A stretch of DNA of 64,000 nt, taken from contig JBAXHT010000001.1 in NCBI GenBank assembly GCA_037138755.1, positions 777,805-841,804 of the forward strand, given 5' to 3'. The notes under the pieces were generated by a model, which worked only from the letters and a program-made list of their open reading frames with translations, had not been told where the DNA came from and searched no databases. Shown here piece after piece: positions 13,233-20,149 of the stretch. Source of the DNA: Armatimonadota bacterium (GTDB taxonomy: Bacteria; Armatimonadota; Fimbriimonadia; Fimbriimonadales; Fimbriimonadaceae). Each line of letters begins with the position of its first letter. Position 1 is the stretch's first letter. A program made the translations under genes and the position numbers.

Positions 13233-14276
13233 TCAATTTGGTGCGTAAATCTTCACGGTTCCGTTATCCGGAGCCCTCGGCGTGGTTCTGCGAATCGCTT
13301 TGCTAGATCCCTTGAACCTCTGCGCGCTCGTTCGGCGCTTCGTAGTCACCCGAGCAATGTTCGCAGGCATGGTCGGCTTGACCTTAGCTGCGACTGGTGC
13401 GCTCGGAGCCGCCTTCTTCGCAACCGGTTTCTGCGCGATTGGAGTTTGCTTAGCCGCCGCCTGGGCCGCCGCCTTCTTCTTCAAAGCCGCAACCTTGGCC
13501 GCCTGAGCCTTCTTGCTCTTCTCTCGAATCGCCGCAAACTTCTGCGCTGCTTCCGACCTCGGCTTCGCCGCCGCCGCCGGAGCCGACGCCACAACTCGCG
13601 TGTCGTTCGCCTTTGGTCCAAACATCGCCGTAGGGTTCTTGGCGATGAGAGACATCGCAATCACCACAGTAGTAAGTCCAGCCATATAGGCAAGTGGCTT
13701 CTTCATCGTCGCATCATGAGCCGGGTTGGTCGGATTGGCGGGCGCGTTTTCTGCCTCCGACTCATTGGTGCGCTTGAACAAGGCAAAAGCCTGCATCAAA
13801 TTCTTCTTTCCGACGGGCTCTTCCGTTGTTAACTGAAGCGTGACCGTCTCCGTCTGCTCCTTGTGAGCAAAGGCAGGAGCCACAACCGGAATCTCAATCT
13901 GTCTCGTGCGCTTATCCGCCAACGCTTCCAGTTGGCGTCGCAGCTCAGTCTTAGGATCACCTTCCACTGGCTCGGCAAACTTCCGAGCCAAGGCACCAAA
14001 CGTCTCCGGGCGGGGGGAATCTAGCTGGGGTGCCGAATTGCCCGGGACGCTGGTCATAGGAATGGGGTCGATAGCAGCGCGAATGCGCTCCTGTCGGTCG
14101 GCCTCAATGGTCGACATCAAACTGCTCCGCTTCTCTTCAAGCACAAGCTTGCAGCGCGGACACGCCGCAATGTGTGACTCAAGCTGGTCAACAACCGCCT
14201 GTCCAAGCTTTTCCCCGTTAATATATCGACCAATCTGTGATTTGGCGATGGCGCATTCAAATTCCGTAACCGGCAT
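13233..14276 (-). CDS. Zinc-finger (zf-HC2) anti-sigma-like membrane protein
   Basis: The 347-residue protein begins with a putative zinc-finger of the anti-sigma type (C8, then H35-x3-C39-x2-C42 in HIAACPRCK). A long polar region follows, then one membrane helix around residues 193-213 (PLAYMAGLTTVVIAMSLIA). The C-terminal tail is very rich in Ala and Lys (for example KKAQAAKVAALKKKAAAQAA), ending in basic segments. The layout fits a membrane anti-sigma factor or sensor with its zinc-finger in the cytoplasm. No sigma gene is adjacent; the nearest ECF sigma is at 21 kb. GAGGAG nine bases before the ATG supports the start. The Lys/Ala tail may touch peptidoglycan or DNA; this is speculative. 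Confidence 0.7.
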   Translation of the reverse strand: MPVTEFECAIAKSQIGRYINGEKLGQAVVDQLESHIAACPRCKLVLEEKRSSLMSTIEADRQERIRAAIDPIPMTSVPGNSAPQLDSPRPETFGALARKFAEPVEGDPKTELRRQLEALADKRTRQIEIPVVAPAFAHKEQTETVTLQLTTEEPVGKKNLMQAFALFKRTNESEAENAPANPTNPAHDATMKKPLAYMAGLTTVVIAMSLIAKNPTAMFGPKANDTRVVASAPAAAAKPRSEAAQKFAAIREKSKKAQAAKVAALKKKAAAQAAAKQTPIAQKPVAKKAAPSAPVAAKVKPTMPANIARVTTKRRTSAQRFKGSSKAIRRTTPRAPDNGTVKIYAPN

Positions 14277-14377
14277 GTTTCAAGTCTCCTCTTTACGAGT
14301 CCTGGTATTTGTATCGGGGCTCGGTTTAGAAACTTGAGGGGGGTTGTCAGGTTTTTGTGTACATGCTTCGTTTGGAC

Positions 14378-15196
14378 TTACTCTGGTAAAGCTTGTTGAA
14401 AGACCTCTGAGGCCCGCTCAGCGGTAACTACGCTAGCTCCGATTTCTTTCTCAATCCGATTACGAGTTTCACCAGCGATGGATCCTCCAGTTACGCATGC
14501 CCGCGTAGCTTGAGTGATTCCCTTGTTTGGGGCCGCTTTGGCTATGACTGTGCTCGTATGTTCTCCAAGTGCGAGAAGAAGCAATTCGGTCGTCGACATT
14601 TCCTCTCGTAGGCCCGATTTGGTAGGGTCTAGCGATTTCAGCTCATGGTGGGCTTTTACACTGATTCCGAAAGTCCCTTGATGAACGATATTTGTCAAGA
14701 TGCTGAACTCCCTCCCGACAGCGCCATGTAGCTGCATCTCGTCTGTGAACGCGCGCCGCACCTTTAGCGATCGGAGCCTCTCCATGATCCAGGCGTCCGT
14801 TCGTCCTTTTGAGTACCAGTTTTTTACGGCTCGATCAACTGCTAAAGCCGGATCAAGCTCTTCCTGAATTCGTTCGACCGCGATCTGAGCAATCCAGTTC
14901 TTGACCTGATCTGCCTTTTTGCCCTTTAGTCCCTGGACTAGCCTGAAAACACCAGTTGAATTGAGAACTCTCTCTTCGTGAGCCTCCACTTTGATGATCT
15001 TTATCTGATCCTGATAGCCGCGTTCATCCCGCTTCTGACTGAAGCTTCGCCACCAGTTCTTGTAGAAAACTTCATCCTCCTTGAAGAAGGCAATTATGTC
15101 GTCGACGTTGTACATCCATTCGCCGTCAACGACATAGCGCCGCACCGTTGCCGTTTCCAATGGGATGAGGTCGCGGGGGGAATCTTGATTGTCCAT
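14378..15196 (-). CDS. Bro-N / phage antirepressor-like protein
   Basis: With the ATG at 15196 (MDNQDSPRDLIPL) the product is 272 residues. The N-terminal part has the Bro-N style fold (YNVDDIIAFFKEDEVFYKNWW, then VFRLVQGLKGKKADQVKNWI). The C-terminal part carries the segment REFSILTNIVHQGTFGISV and EEMSTTELLLLALGEHTST, which I recognise from bacterial Bro-N/DinD-like proteins. Such proteins are common on phages, plasmids and islands, and some are DNA-damage induced. The alternative start at 15262 would add a short unconserved extension. It is transcribed away from the tRNA next to it. Confidence 0.7.
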   Translation of the reverse strand: MDNQDSPRDLIPLETATVRRYVVDGEWMYNVDDIIAFFKEDEVFYKNWWRSFSQKRDERGYQDQIKIIKVEAHEERVLNSTGVFRLVQGLKGKKADQVKNWIAQIAVERIQEELDPALAVDRAVKNWYSKGRTDAWIMERLRSLKVRRAFTDEMQLHGAVGREFSILTNIVHQGTFGISVKAHHELKSLDPTKSGLREEMSTTELLLLALGEHTSTVIAKAAPNKGITQATRACVTGGSIAGETRNRIEKEIGASVVTAERASEVFQQALPE

Positions 15197-15298
15197 AGTA
15201 GTAGACACATGATACACGAAAATGTGCCCAGCGAGAAAAATTCTCAACGACGAAGAACACAAATTTGCGCCTCGATTTGCGTCGCTCTTCCGTCTTTA

Positions 15299-15326
15299 CC
15301 TTGCCTGAAGTCAGAATCAGGCAAGG
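15299..15326. repeat. Perfect 10-bp inverted repeat next to a tRNA
   Basis: Arms CCTTGCCTGA (15299-15308) and TCAGGCAAGG (15317-15326) are perfectly complementary, with an eight-base loop. The repeat ends one base before the tRNA begins. It is not followed by a T run, so it is not a classic terminator. It could be part of the tRNA precursor, a protein site or an integration footprint. Confidence 0.8.
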
Positions 15327-15327
15327 T

Positions 15328-15400
15328 GCCCCCGTAGCTCAGTGGATAGAGCTCCCTTCTCGCAGATGGTCAGTCGCAGGTTCGAATCCTGTCGGGGGCG
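15328..15400 (+). tRNA. tRNA, isotype uncertain (anticodon arm poorly paired)
   Basis: The acceptor stem GCCCCCG/CGGGGGC, the D arm GCTC-AGTGGATA-GAGC, and the T arm GCAGG-TTCGAAT-CCTGT all pair well, and T8/A9 are in place. CCA is not encoded. The anticodon arm does not pair cleanly: 15354-15358 (CCCTT) against 15366-15370 (ATGGT) has two mismatches. By position the anticodon would be CGC (Ala), but there is no G3-U70 pair. The D-loop A20 is more typical of tRNA-Arg. It may be a damaged tRNA or one with an odd loop. Confidence 0.7.
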
Positions 15401-15489
15401 CACTTATTCTACTCTCGGTTTCCCGATTGCAATTCTACAGACGAGAGAACACTGCGCTTTGATTTATAGAAACTTGTTTTTTCCAAGTT

Positions 15490-15666
15490 TTATTCATCTT
15501 CAATCTCATCTTCGATAGGGTCCGGAAACGGCATTCCTCGTTCTTGTTCTAAACTTGCGATGTACCTCATCAGAGCGATGTTTACATGCTGAACTTTGGG
15601 TTGGCGTGGCAAAGAGTGCTTTGCAAGGCTACTTAGCCTACGGAACAAAGTTGCTGGTATGGACAC
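15490..15666 (-). CDS. Small ribbon-helix-helix-like protein
   Basis: This frame encodes a 58-residue protein from a GTG at 15666, which has GAGAGG nine bases upstream. It reads SIPATLFRRLSSLAKHSLPR, then QHVNIALMRYIASLEQERG, and ends in an acidic tail (DPIEDEIEDE). The strand-helix-helix pattern resembles a ribbon-helix-helix DNA-binding domain. The frame stays open upstream to 15717 and codes RQLSV, which would complete the beta strand, but it has no ATG there. A Met at 15698 lies in another frame, so a frameshift or a broken gene is possible. It sits in the accessory island. Confidence 0.45.
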   Translation of the reverse strand: MSIPATLFRRLSSLAKHSLPRQPKVQHVNIALMRYIASLEQERGMPFPDPIEDEIEDE

Positions 15667-15809
15667 CGAGAGTTGCCTCTCGTACTTTTCTGAGTCATTT
15701 TTCCGAATACATTCAGTTTACAAGTTTTTTCCAAGTATTTGATCGCGCTGATTCGTTCCTCTCTCATTGTGCCTCTAATTCGTTTCTGAGCAGATGGCAT
15801 AATCGCTTT

Positions 15810-16166
15810 ATGGAACCATCTACCCTTGAAATACTGGCCGGCGAGAAAGTAATCGGTCTGATTTTTGATGCTCGGGAGGTGTTCAGTGAGCATGTTATAC
15901 CGAGTCGAGCACTAAGACTAAAGAAACCCGCAGTTGTTGTTAGCAGCGTCGTCTCTGGTGTGCTTAGTCAGGAGGGGATCGACTTCCTTTCAAAAACGCA
16001 CGCCGATGAATTGGTTTCAATTCGAAACATCGTTGGGAACGTAAAGCACCTGGAATTCGAGCTAACCGGAGGTCAGGTGACACTATGTAAGCGGAAATCC
16101 CTTGGAAGGCAGACTGTAGATTTGTTTGATGAGACAGGATCCCCGATACCGGGGCACATCCTGTAG
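15810..16166 (+). CDS. Hypothetical protein of the accessory island
   Basis: I do not recognise this protein. I chose ATG 15810 (MEPSTLEILAGEKVIGLIF), giving 118 residues. The upstream part of the open frame is AT-rich and overlaps the ribbon-helix-helix gene on the other strand. A CATAAT-type -10 element at 15799-15804 lies just before the start. The product looks alpha/beta, with a Val/Ser-rich core (KKPAVVVSSVVSGVLSQEG). Its stop codon lies in the loop of the large inverted repeat at 16149. Confidence 0.5.
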   Translation: MEPSTLEILAGEKVIGLIFDAREVFSEHVIPSRALRLKKPAVVVSSVVSGVLSQEGIDFLSKTHADELVSIRNIVGNVKHLEFELTGGQVTLCKRKSLGRQTVDLFDETGSPIPGHIL

Positions 16167-16320
16167 TTATAGGATGTACCCCGGATGCCGCGGGTTAATC
16201 GACCCGTCGCATCCGAAAGGTCCGCCTTCGGCGCCTACGAGGGAGCCATTGACCGGGGCGGATTTGCAGGAGAAATTGGGTTGTGCCGTACTGGTAACCC
16301 CAACGCCAACGGAAAGCCGT
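16149..16320 (+). ncRNA. Hairpin-rich stretch, candidate structured RNA
   Basis: At least five local inverted repeats follow one another. A 14-bp repeat with one mismatch and an eight-base loop is at 16149-16184. A 13-bp repeat with two mismatches is at 16183-16214. Nested arms are TCCGCC (16221-16226) with GGCGGA (16257-16262), enclosing GGCGCC (16230-16235) with GGAGCC (16242-16247). TTGGGTT (16276-16282) faces AACCCCAA (16296-16303). ACGG-AAAG-CCGT is at 16309-16320. No convincing ORF explains the stretch. It matches no RNA family I can recall. It may be a structured RNA, a 5' leader of the ATPase gene or a replication/recombination site. The strand is assumed. Confidence 0.45.
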
Positions 16321-16332
16321 CAGCCGAACTGG

Positions 16333-16363
16333 TTGACAAACGCCCTCGCAACTGCCTTATAGA
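16333..16363 (+). promoter_or_regulatory. Putative promoter of the AAA ATPase gene
   Basis: A perfect -35 hexamer TTGACA (16333-16338) is followed 19 bases later by TATAGA (16358-16363), just before the ATG at 16367. The spacer is longer than usual and the -10 is very close to the start, so either the mRNA starts within the codon region or the true -10 lies slightly upstream. Confidence 0.4.
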
Positions 16364-16366
16364 TGA

Positions 16367-17485
16367 ATGCGCTTCATCGACGACAATAACTCCCCTGACT
16401 TCTGGTCCCGCGACCACTACGCCGACGATCCAAACCACCCGCTCTACAACTTCGAACCCGAAGAAGAAGAACAGGACGCGAGCCGCAAAGATCCAGACGA
16501 ACTCATCGACTCAGGAACGTGCTTCGGTTACCTCCCCAGGAGCCAGGTCAGCCCGAACCCCCGGACGTTCAAGTCCAAACCCTACTCCTCCTTTCACCAA
16601 GTCAAAGCCCCCCGCCACAACCTAACCAAACCTGAAGAAGACATCTTCCCCCAGAACAGTCTCATCGTCCTAGCCGGGCAGCCCAAGATCGGAAAGACCA
16701 CCATCGCAATTGCGCTTGCCAAAGCAATCGCCACCGGAAAACCCTTCGCCGGACAAAAGACCAAGAAACAACCTGTCGGCTACATCAGCTTCGATGACTC
16801 ACCCAGAGAAATTAGTGAAGCCTTTACAAAGCACAAAGACATCACAGAGAAGACACCCATCTTCCTCACCACAGAAATGGAACCCATCAACACCAAGGCC
16901 GCCCATATCGAAATCGAAGACTTCCTCATCAAGCACAGGGGCGAAGCTACCGTCATCATCGACTCCTTCCACGCCGCCCTTCTGGACGCCAGAACCAACG
17001 ACGCCCGCGCCATGCGAAAACTCCTCAACCCCCTCAAGAGAATCTCAGAACGAGCCGGACGAATCATCATCATCCACCACACCAACGCCTACGGAACGCG
17101 AATCGCCGACCACACCCAACTCCAAGCCTCCGTCAGCCAAACCATTCTGATGACCTACCAGCAAAGAGACCACTGCCGCATCATCAAATGGCAATCCTTC
17201 GGAAGAGGCGCAAACGCCACCAAAACCCTCCACATCGCAAGCACCAACGAAACCACCTTCAAACAGCACAACCTTGAACCCCTCAAAGATCTCAATCCCC
17301 AAGATAAGAGCACAAAACCTATCCTAAAAGCCCTCGCTAAGGCATCGAAAACCGTCGAACAGCTCGTCATCGAAACCCGCCTCACGCCAATTCGGATCCA
17401 CAAACGCCTCAGGAAGTTGATCGAGCTCGGCCACGTAACCCGTAGCCAAGGAACGTACAGCCTCCTCACCGGCAGCCCCCATTGA
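16367..17485 (+). CDS. RepA-like AAA ATPase (AAA_25 type) with C-terminal winged helix
   Basis: The 372-residue protein has a low-complexity acidic N-terminus, then a RecA-fold ATPase. Its Walker A is AGQPKIGKTT (around residues 103-112), its Walker B ATVIIDSFHA, and a sensor region is GRIIIIHHTN. The order fits hexameric RepA/RegA-type ATPases found on plasmids, phages and islands, often as helicases. The last ~50 residues (TVEQLVIETRLTPIRIHKRL, then LIELGHVTRSQGTYSLL) form a winged helix-turn-helix. Codon use is very poor in T. It is flanked by hairpin-rich DNA on both sides. The function, whether helicase, replication initiator or DNA-binding sensor, is not settled. Confidence 0.75.
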   Translation: MRFIDDNNSPDFWSRDHYADDPNHPLYNFEPEEEEQDASRKDPDELIDSGTCFGYLPRSQVSPNPRTFKSKPYSSFHQVKAPRHNLTKPEEDIFPQNSLIVLAGQPKIGKTTIAIALAKAIATGKPFAGQKTKKQPVGYISFDDSPREISEAFTKHKDITEKTPIFLTTEMEPINTKAAHIEIEDFLIKHRGEATVIIDSFHAALLDARTNDARAMRKLLNPLKRISERAGRIIIIHHTNAYGTRIADHTQLQASVSQTILMTYQQRDHCRIIKWQSFGRGANATKTLHIASTNETTFKQHNLEPLKDLNPQDKSTKPILKALAKASKTVEQLVIETRLTPIRIHKRLRKLIELGHVTRSQGTYSLLTGSPH

Positions 17486-17512
17486 CGGTCACTTCGCCCA
17501 CGGGGCGCGGGT

Positions 17513-17566
17513 CCCAAGTCGCTACTGGTTCCAGAGCGAATGCGGCGGAGCCAGTGGCGTCTTGGG
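17513..17566. repeat. 16-bp inverted repeat after the AAA ATPase gene
   Basis: Arms CCCAAGTCGCTACTGG (17513-17528) and CCAGTGGCGTCTTGGG (17551-17566) pair with two mismatches, one of which is G-U in RNA. The 22-base loop is GC-rich. No T run follows. The gap from here to the acpP start holds nothing else I can support. Confidence 0.7.
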
Positions 17567-17792
17567 TGGGGTGTGGCATCGGGCCGGGAGGATGACTTTC
17601 TTAGGGCTACCCACCCCTACCCACCTTTCCGGCACTCAATGCCAAAATTTGAACCTGACTACCCCACAAAATGCGTCGCAGTTCTCTCCGAAATCGCAAA
17701 CCAAAAACCTCAAACCGAAATCAAGCGCACCCATTTCACCCCCCGAGTCGTAAGATACAGGGAAGGCAGAACGGGTATTGTTCTGATTGATT

Positions 17793-18035
17793 ATGTCTAC
17801 AGACATTTTTGAAAGAGTCAAGAAGGTCACCGTCGAAGAACTCGACGTGAAGGCCGAAGAAGTCGTCACTGAAGCTAGCTTCACCGAGGATCTGGGTGCA
17901 GATTCACTGGACGTCGTTGAGTTGGTCATGGCTTTCGAGGACGAGTTCGGGATTGACATTCCGGACGAAGAAGTCGGCGAGATCAAGACTGTCGGAAACG
18001 CAGTCGATTACATCTCGAAGAAAGTCGCCGGCTAA
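17793..18035 (+). CDS. acpP: Acyl carrier protein
   Basis: This acidic 80-residue protein has the carrier motif [12 protein letters not shown], with Ser38 as the site for the 4'-phosphopantetheine arm. It shuttles acyl chains in type II fatty acid synthesis. I chose ATG 17793 over a TTG six bases upstream. There is no clear Shine-Dalgarno; a TATTGT element lies 11 bases upstream. Its stop overlaps the fabF start (TAATG), the usual acpP-fabF arrangement. Confidence 0.95.
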
Positions 18036-19297: not shown

Positions 19298-20149
19298 ATG
19301 ACCGGCTCGCTAGCTGAGCATATCGAAGGTTTTCTGGTTCACCTATCAGCGCGTCGGTCGCCGGCAACAGTTCGTTCCTACGGTTCCGACCTCCGGCAGT
19401 ATCTCGGTTTTGTCGAAGAGGAATCGGTTTTTGATACTTCCTCGCTACGGTTGTTTCTAAGAAAGCACGGCGGCCAACCAGTCTCCCGAGCTCGCAAGCT
19501 CTCAACGCTGCGCGCGTTCGCCCGATACCTCCGCACGGTCGGCGCCCTCGACTCAGACCCCACCGAGCCACTGGAAGCTCCCTACAAGCGAAAGAAGCTG
19601 CCTAAAAGCCTCAACCAGCCGCAGGCAGGGGAGCTTTTGGATCAGACTTCGGTCGGTCGCACCCCTGAGCGAGACCGGGCGCTACTGGAACTCCTCTACT
19701 CCGCAGGCCTTCGGGCGGCGGAAGTGGTTTCAATTAAACTGACCGATGTTTCGTTCGCCGAGCGTTCGCTACGGGTGATCGGAAAAGGCAACAAGGAGCG
19801 GATGGTGTTCTACGGCTCGACTGCGGCAGCAGCTCTTGATGACTACGTTAGGGGTCCCCGGGTAGCTGGTACAGCGTTGTTTACAAACGAGAAAGGGCTA
19901 GCCTTGACCACCCGGACGGTGCAGAACATCGTCAAACGGTGGGCAATCGCGGCGGGCTTGCCCCCAGAAACTTCACCTCACACACTGCGGCATTCGTTTG
20001 CGACGCACCTGCTGGATGGCGGAGCGGACCTCAAGACAGTTCAACAGTTATTGGGCCACGAGAGTCTGGCAACAACTCAGATCTACACGCACGTGAGCAT
20101 CGAGCGGCTGAAGGAAACGGTCGCCAAGGCGCACCCGAAGTCGGGCTAG
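19298..20149 (+). CDS. xerC: Tyrosine recombinase XerC/XerD
   Basis: The 283-residue protein has an N-terminal SAM-like DNA-binding domain (to about residue 95) and a C-terminal catalytic domain. All catalytic residues are present: Arg139 (SAGLRAAEV), Lys163 (GKGNKERM), His228 and Arg231 (HTLRHSFATHLL), His254 (LGHESLATT) and Tyr263 (IYTHV). Length fits XerC/XerD, which resolve chromosome dimers at dif. Whether it is XerC or XerD cannot be told. It follows fabF closely, so it looks like a housekeeping gene and not an integrase of the nearby island. Confidence 0.9.
   Translation: MTGSLAEHIEGFLVHLSARRSPATVRSYGSDLRQYLGFVEEESVFDTSSLRLFLRKHGGQPVSRARKLSTLRAFARYLRTVGALDSDPTEPLEAPYKRKKLPKSLNQPQAGELLDQTSVGRTPERDRALLELLYSAGLRAAEVVSIKLTDVSFAERSLRVIGKGNKERMVFYGSTAAAALDDYVRGPRVAGTALFTNEKGLALTTRTVQNIVKRWAIAAGLPPETSPHTLRHSFATHLLDGGADLKTVQQLLGHESLATTQIYTHVSIERLKETVAKAHPKSG

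Follow-up and report, generated by a model that had tools for sequence, protein, structure and literature searches.

Does the run of genes and DNA structures at positions 14378-17566 of the window form one small mobile element? The window is a 64-kb stretch (C1:777805-841804) of the 3.27-Mb genome of an Armatimonadota bacterium, here called G000, and a preliminary description of the run had grouped a Bro-N antirepressor-like gene, a hairpin, a tRNA, a ribbon-helix-helix-like gene, a tandem hairpin block and a RepA-like ATPase with an inverted repeat into a single accessory unit. We compared G000 with 60 relatives (61 genomes in all), among them G016 and G001, which are sister genomes of the same genus and both hold the relevant features. 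The comparison identifies 16331-17688 as one complete copy of an element that is dispersed in the genome, consisting of a left end, a gene for a RepA-like ATPase, a hairpin 3' of that gene (module A) and a right end (module B; Table 1). That this family is a dispersed, lineage-specific element of three related freshwater bacteria is well supported, and as far as the literature searched and Rfam go, the unit of RepA, module A and module B is undescribed. Searches of open-licence literature showed nothing on Fimbriimonas repeats or on PDC-S13, a defence family that is matched by a neighbouring gene, which does not imply absence from print.

Extent, ends and copies of the element

The DNA around other RepA copies matched the window in 16330-17715 or parts of it only, and none of it matched in 14378-16329. 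Since other full-copy loci share only DNA of the element, and have no DNA matching the Bro-N-like gene, the tRNA-like gene or the other open reading frames (ORFs), 14378-17566 is not one unit. The earlier idea of a small mobile element thus survives for the RepA-like protein with its DNA structures, an apparently mobile unit, but only within 16331-17688. The sole gene of this unit encodes an AAA_25 protein, and genes for a transposase, an integrase or a capsid are absent from it.

The element forms a family with sharp ends. Left ends have the form GGTTGACA-N15-CGCCTA, and the DNA before GGTTGACA is unrelated between copies. The exact pattern GGTTGACAN{10,18}CGCCTA occurred 13 times in G000, 15 times in G001 and 24 times in G016, compared to five times (in four genomes) in the other 58 genomes, and its backward control gave no match in G000, G001 or G016; the window copy itself deviates from the exact pattern (CTGCCTTATAG). 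A simple promoter scan returned no site at the left end, 16331-16369. Right ends close with GCAGTTCTCTC, and their units are frequently doubled. Right end and module A together gave 38 matches in G000, 17 in G016 and eight in G001, with none in G002, G003, G009 and G010, and because a second type of right-end tail exists (CAAACTCTACACACGC, recognized by eye) these counts are lower bounds.

In the sister genomes full copies are found at different loci, with aligned coding stretches that are about 87-90% identical at the DNA level versus about 76-82% in flanking housekeeping DNA. Short copies without the ATPase make up the majority of the copies examined: 38 loci (L105-L142) yielded 27 copies in which a motif resembling the left end and a right-end motif lie no more than 520 bp apart, the left end being doubtful in at least two of them (L108 and L138). 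In one of the short copies, L105, a deletion has fused the start of repA to the right end; G016 holds a full copy at this place. A reading of the bodies of short copies as remnants of repA coding sequence was set aside, as by eye only L105 clearly retains the repA start.

We compared the right boundary with the sister genomes at eight of the nine loci that had flanks in the query (L128 was left out). It was exact at two loci (L113 and L117), within 25-47 bp at five and 167 bp off at one. At L117 the site measures 1149 bp in G000 and 2 bp in G016, the 1149-bp stretch including other DNA, and at L108 it measures 575 bp in G000 and 104 bp in G016. The inserts at the intergenic site of L117 (L117:477-1625, L205:1942-2906) differ between G000 and G001, G016 has none there, and the site is possibly an insertion hotspot. 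In G016, an inverted pair (CTCAGGTTCAA/TTGAACCTGAG) bounds right-end repeats at L206:1690-2060.

Table 1. Positions of the element's parts and of the neighbouring features in the window
Feature	Position	Strand	Remarks
Left end (LE), just before and including the repA ATG; promoter-like TTGACA, leaderless-looking	16331..16369	+	Boundary conserved in aligned copies
repA-like gene, 372 aa	16367..17485	+	Pfam AAA_25, AlphaFold, Foldseek, pN/pS
Module A, conserved hairpin of ~107 nt behind repA	17488..17596	+	Fold z -3.74; covariation
Module B / right end (RE): iteron-like U (CTACCCACCCCTACCCACC ... CTACCCC), TTTGAACCTGA, tail AATGCGTCGCAGTTCTCTC	17607..17688	+	Dispersed copies in G000, G016, G001
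Bro-N-like gene, PDC-S13 defence candidate, 272 aa from ATG	14378..15196	-	Not part of the element; Pfam, PHROGs, PADLOC
Perfect hairpin abutting the tRNA-like gene	15297..15328	+	Not part of the element; fold z -5.9
tRNA-Arg(TCT)-like gene, mismatched anticodon stem, no CCA	15328..15401	+	Not part of the element
58-aa ORF, earlier ribbon-helix-helix candidate	15490..15666	-	No family match
118-aa ORF	15810..16166	+	Not part of the element; no family at significant E-value
Tandem hairpin block	16128..16260	+	Fold z -3.68; not part of the element

The RepA-like ATPase, module A and the U repeats

The assignment of the single gene to a RepA-like ATPase held up, with a match to Pfam AAA_25 (PF13481) at 2.6e-21. 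In the AlphaFold model (mean predicted local distance difference test score 69, higher in the core) a disordered N-terminus is followed by a RecA/KaiC-fold core at about residues 91-300 and a C-terminal winged helix at residues 316-366. The model matched KaiC, RecA and RadA in Foldseek, the protein matched phage primase-helicases among the PHROGs, and its Walker A and Walker B motifs are invariant across the aligned RepA-like proteins. RSF1010 RepA and the AAA_25 helicases of plasmids and phages presumably have an AAA_25 or RecA-type ATPase in common with this protein, which differs from the plasmid helicases in having no plasmid match in PLSDB. The ratio of nonsynonymous to synonymous differences (pN/pS) between the window RepA and a G016 copy was 0.27, which speaks for selection on the protein.

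RepA-like genes were found at E<=0.001 in 14 of the 61 genomes, and relatives at least 40% identical over most of the ATPase in G000, G001, G016 and G009 only. The number of close relatives was two in G000, five in G016 (one of them truncated) and two in G001; the ATPase of G009, at 40% identity, likewise has TTTGAACCTAA and a repeat resembling U downstream. When 84,980 species genomes were searched with the RepA family alignment, ten loci emerged, eight of which came from G016, G001 and G009. A reading of the element as part of a phage was rejected, as the module A and right-end patterns had no exact match in viral contigs and the RepA search of viral sequences yielded only four distant loci. 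Synonymous divergence (dS) between G000 and G016 was 0.45 for RepA, 1.03 for fabF and 1.90 for recA; the lower value for RepA points to transfer between lineages or to recombination between copies.

The inverted repeat noted earlier behind the ATPase gene is present, as a hairpin of about 107 nt. This hairpin, module A, is more stable than its shuffled versions and represents a structured nucleic-acid family whose structure is conserved: in an alignment of 15 copies, 22 of 37 pairs carried two-sided changes, a number reached by none of 500 shuffles, and sliding the pairing partners abolished the covariation signal. A covariance model (R1) built from these 15 copies, which were chosen among copies found via DNA similarity, scored the window hairpin at 103.7 bits. 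It matched 13 times in G000, corresponding to 12 places as the match at C2:455216 repeats another one on the opposite strand, ten times in G016 and four times in G001, with no match in the other 58 genomes (stricter filters were applied to more than 40 genomes). Module A lies 3' of repA in the window and at L027, L030, L031 and L033. A known RNA was rejected as its identity, Rfam 15 having no matching family.

Iteron-like direct repeats, U, are present in the right end, and two U types occur among the copies. The RepA proteins of the window and G016 have cores that are 91% identical and winged helices that are 52% identical, and their U repeats differ; the window and G001 proteins, in contrast, have winged helices of the same type (65% identical) and the same U type. 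U strings were chosen by eye for seven of the nine intact RepA-like proteins (L029, L032 and the truncated L035, the tenth, were left out), and in this small sample winged-helix type and U type match: winged-helix identity correlated with U similarity at r=0.80, a level reached in 4 of 5040 permutations, and after removal of the ATPase core the partial correlation was 0.73 (3 of 5040 permutations). The two RepA copies without a clear U (L029:6480-6660 and L032:6720-6970) terminate at AGGTTCAA, behind which lies an inverted repeat (GATGGGAAAT/ATTTCCCATC; GGATACGAA/TTCGTATCC).

The left-hand DNA and the chromosomal junction

Homology with the sisters ends on the left at window position 14374 (G016) and resumes on the right at 17723 (G016) or 17748 (G001), and 14374-16330 has no counterpart at the matching place in either genome. 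Because this DNA is missing there, the conserved gene order that the preliminary description had named as its refuting outcome was not observed, and its view of the run as accessory DNA is borne out. In G016 and G001 the zf-HC2 gene and the acyl carrier protein-fabF genes lie about 20 kb apart, with polA and ruvA among the genes between them, while in G000 a polA/ruvA block of about 16 kb is found at C1:878.5-894.5 kb, about 86 kb downstream of the locus. The studied stretch thus sits at the junction of a chromosomal rearrangement, and 14374-16330 is foreign accessory DNA with one defence candidate, unrelated to the element and located beside the chromosomal break. As described earlier, no integrase gene was found between 14378 and 17566; a Xer recombinase gene at window position 19298 is conserved in G016.

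The features of the left-hand DNA were recovered to differing degrees. The Bro-N assignment is in part sustained: the Pfam Bro-N score of 21.4 bits falls under the cut-off of 25.6, but the protein matches phrog_15286 at 2e-37 and the PADLOC family model PDC-S13 at 1.7e-57 over residues 14-266, the latter marking it as a defence candidate by sequence. The gene is present as a single copy in G000, with no relative among the 60 other genomes searched, and distant relatives occur in four small phage records of about 5 kb. The tRNA turned out to be a tRNA-like gene, labelled Ala(CGC) by ARAGORN, with best matches in other genomes that are mostly tRNA-Arg(TCT); the ordinary tRNA-Arg(TCT) of G000 lies at C1:1007857 and is one of only three further sites in G000 with a match to the tRNA region (77-92% identity). 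The alignment, read by eye, shows anticodon-stem mismatches and no encoded CCA. A repeat of the tRNA 3' part, suggested as a possible border, was not found within 14200-17800 in a scan that reached at most 200 bases between copies. Both hairpin features were confirmed; the one upstream of the tRNA-like gene is more stable than shuffles, with a 3' edge that coincides with the start of that gene, and the tandem block was matched in stability by none of 200 shuffles and was unmatched by model R1 up to E=1. The supposed ribbon-helix-helix gene, by contrast with the earlier claim, is an ORF of 58 aa with no match in Pfam, NCBIfam or PHROGs.

Two further observations concern DNA elsewhere. G000 and G016 share a segment of about 373 bp by polA (L240:651-1024, L145:7109-7481) at 91% identity, above the surrounding genes, and this segment is perhaps a structured RNA gene. 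G000 also contains dozens of matches of about 100 bp to the starts of prepilin-like genes (TLIELLVVIAIIAILAAILFPVFAQA), a large type IV pilin-like family.

How the element may spread

We tentatively propose that the element is an integrated mini-replicon that spreads by copying, a reading drawn from analogy and to which we give slightly less than an even chance. The winged helix would bind U at the right end, and the ATPase would assemble there and open or unwind DNA at stem-loop A, which would serve as a replication origin in the manner of pRN1. Host enzymes could then help the copied DNA to re-enter the chromosome, and the short copies, which have a left and a right end and no ATPase, may be internally deleted passengers served in trans. 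Taken further, the family might represent a new mobile class with a RecA/KaiC-fold ATPase as its sole protein, an exchangeable winged helix that reads type-specific right-end repeats, a stem-loop origin, no encoded transposase or integrase, and dozens of short passengers obeying the same rules; this broader claim we regard as doubtful.

Several points weigh against the mini-replicon proposal. Neither replication nor excision nor a circular form was observed. The sister comparisons gave no target-site duplication and no empty site for a single element defined on both sides, and sites common to several genomes (L111/L136/L140, L112/L138, L123/L142 and L105/L027) argue that many copies are old. 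The place of module A varies, as copies of it are also found where RepA is missing, or 20-110 nt before a left end. The U strings were picked by eye, in a small sample that excludes two of nine intact ATPases (L029 and L032) for want of a clear U. Furthermore, none of the sequence relatives in the PDB supports a helicase function for the RepA-like protein, and its low dS could stem from recombination between copies.

The elements might instead be moved by a single-strand (HUH) transposase encoded elsewhere, modelled on the TnpA-REP enzymes that are thought to move repetitive extragenic palindromic (REP) sequences, with the ends as hairpin substrates and RepA as cargo or helper. The lack of visible terminal inverted repeats and target duplications, the small palindromes seen by eye at both ends (GGTTGACAAACC, TGCGTCGCA) and the retention of the right end while left ends vary would fit such an enzyme, and Y1_Tnp proteins are indeed encoded in G000 (four), G016 (two) and G001 (two). 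One Y1_Tnp gene of G000, which resembles REP-associated tyrosine transposases (RAYTs; L269:1781-2284), has an element left end at 2681, about 400 bp upstream of its start. However, Y1_Tnp occurs in 27 of 31 genomes, many of them without the element, a distribution that does not support a family-specific partner; none of the eight Y1 loci fetched has clear element ends on both sides, and the covariation of winged helix and U would be left unexplained. We consider this explanation rather unlikely. Still less probable is that the left end, module A and module B are repeats with a regulatory or structural role (a promoter, a 3'-untranslated-region hairpin and a protein-binding array) that spread long ago and were retained for regulation or DNA organisation. 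Many sites are intergenic, module A is often located just 3' of a gene, and the sites shared by L111/L136/L140, L112/L138 and L123/L142 are common by descent, yet the repeats are limited to three of the 61 genomes and full copies lie at different places between genomes. Copies occur in either orientation to the gene that comes next; this speaks against a simple promoter role, and for this reason module B was rejected as an extracytoplasmic function (ECF)-sigma promoter. As for the original grouping, which treats the whole of 14378-17566 as a single decayed element, satellite or integrative, that inserted at a tRNA, all of its parts are missing from the corresponding place in both G016 and G001. 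Genes of the tRNA-like and Bro-N kinds are typical of mobile DNA, and small phage records contain relatives of the Bro-N protein. We nevertheless judge it very improbable, given that the other full RepA copies have no DNA in common with 14378-16330, that Bro-N is missing from the 60 relatives and that neither an integrase nor an attachment repeat was found.

Known systems offer partial parallels to the proposed mini-replicon. As described in PMC4234260, the replication protein of the archaeal plasmid pRN1 carries a winged helix, and a stem-loop of about 100 nt behind its own gene, kept in shape and not in sequence, is needed for replication. To this extent pRN1-type replicons resemble the element, which likewise combines an ATPase and a C-terminal winged helix with a structure-conserved stem-loop of about 100 nt, module A, 3' of the gene. 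The pRN1 protein, however, has a primase-polymerase and a superfamily 3 (SF3) helicase, whereas the element's RecA/KaiC-fold protein gave matches only to AAA_25-type ATPases and helix-turn-helix domains, with no primase; the element further differs in its many chromosomal copies, its bacterial host and its additional iteron-like repeats. REP sequences and REPINs with TnpA-REP (RAYT), as described in PMC8266576 and PMC3116915, are dispersed short intergenic hairpin repeats that co-vary with their protein. The element shares these traits, but its units are larger, no HUH nuclease is linked to it, and the linked protein is an ATPase with a winged helix. Miniature inverted-repeat transposable elements (MITEs) are similar in that short, internally deleted copies outnumber full ones in the loci examined; unlike them, the element has no transposase parent, and neither terminal inverted repeats nor target duplications were seen by eye in the copies aligned. 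Helitrons, described in part in PMC4778049, have no inverted repeats and a hairpin near the 3' end, much as no inverted repeats were found in the element and its hairpin lies toward the 3' end, but the element lacks an HUH endonuclease.

Module A adds a new structured nucleic-acid family that is not in Rfam 15. If the mini-replicon proposal is true, plasmid-style replication proteins would be tied to repeat families scattered through bacterial chromosomes, in a compact system of one ATPase, one hairpin and one repeat array in which the specificities of initiator and binding site change together. Such a system would provide one route by which intergenic repeats arise without a classical transposase.

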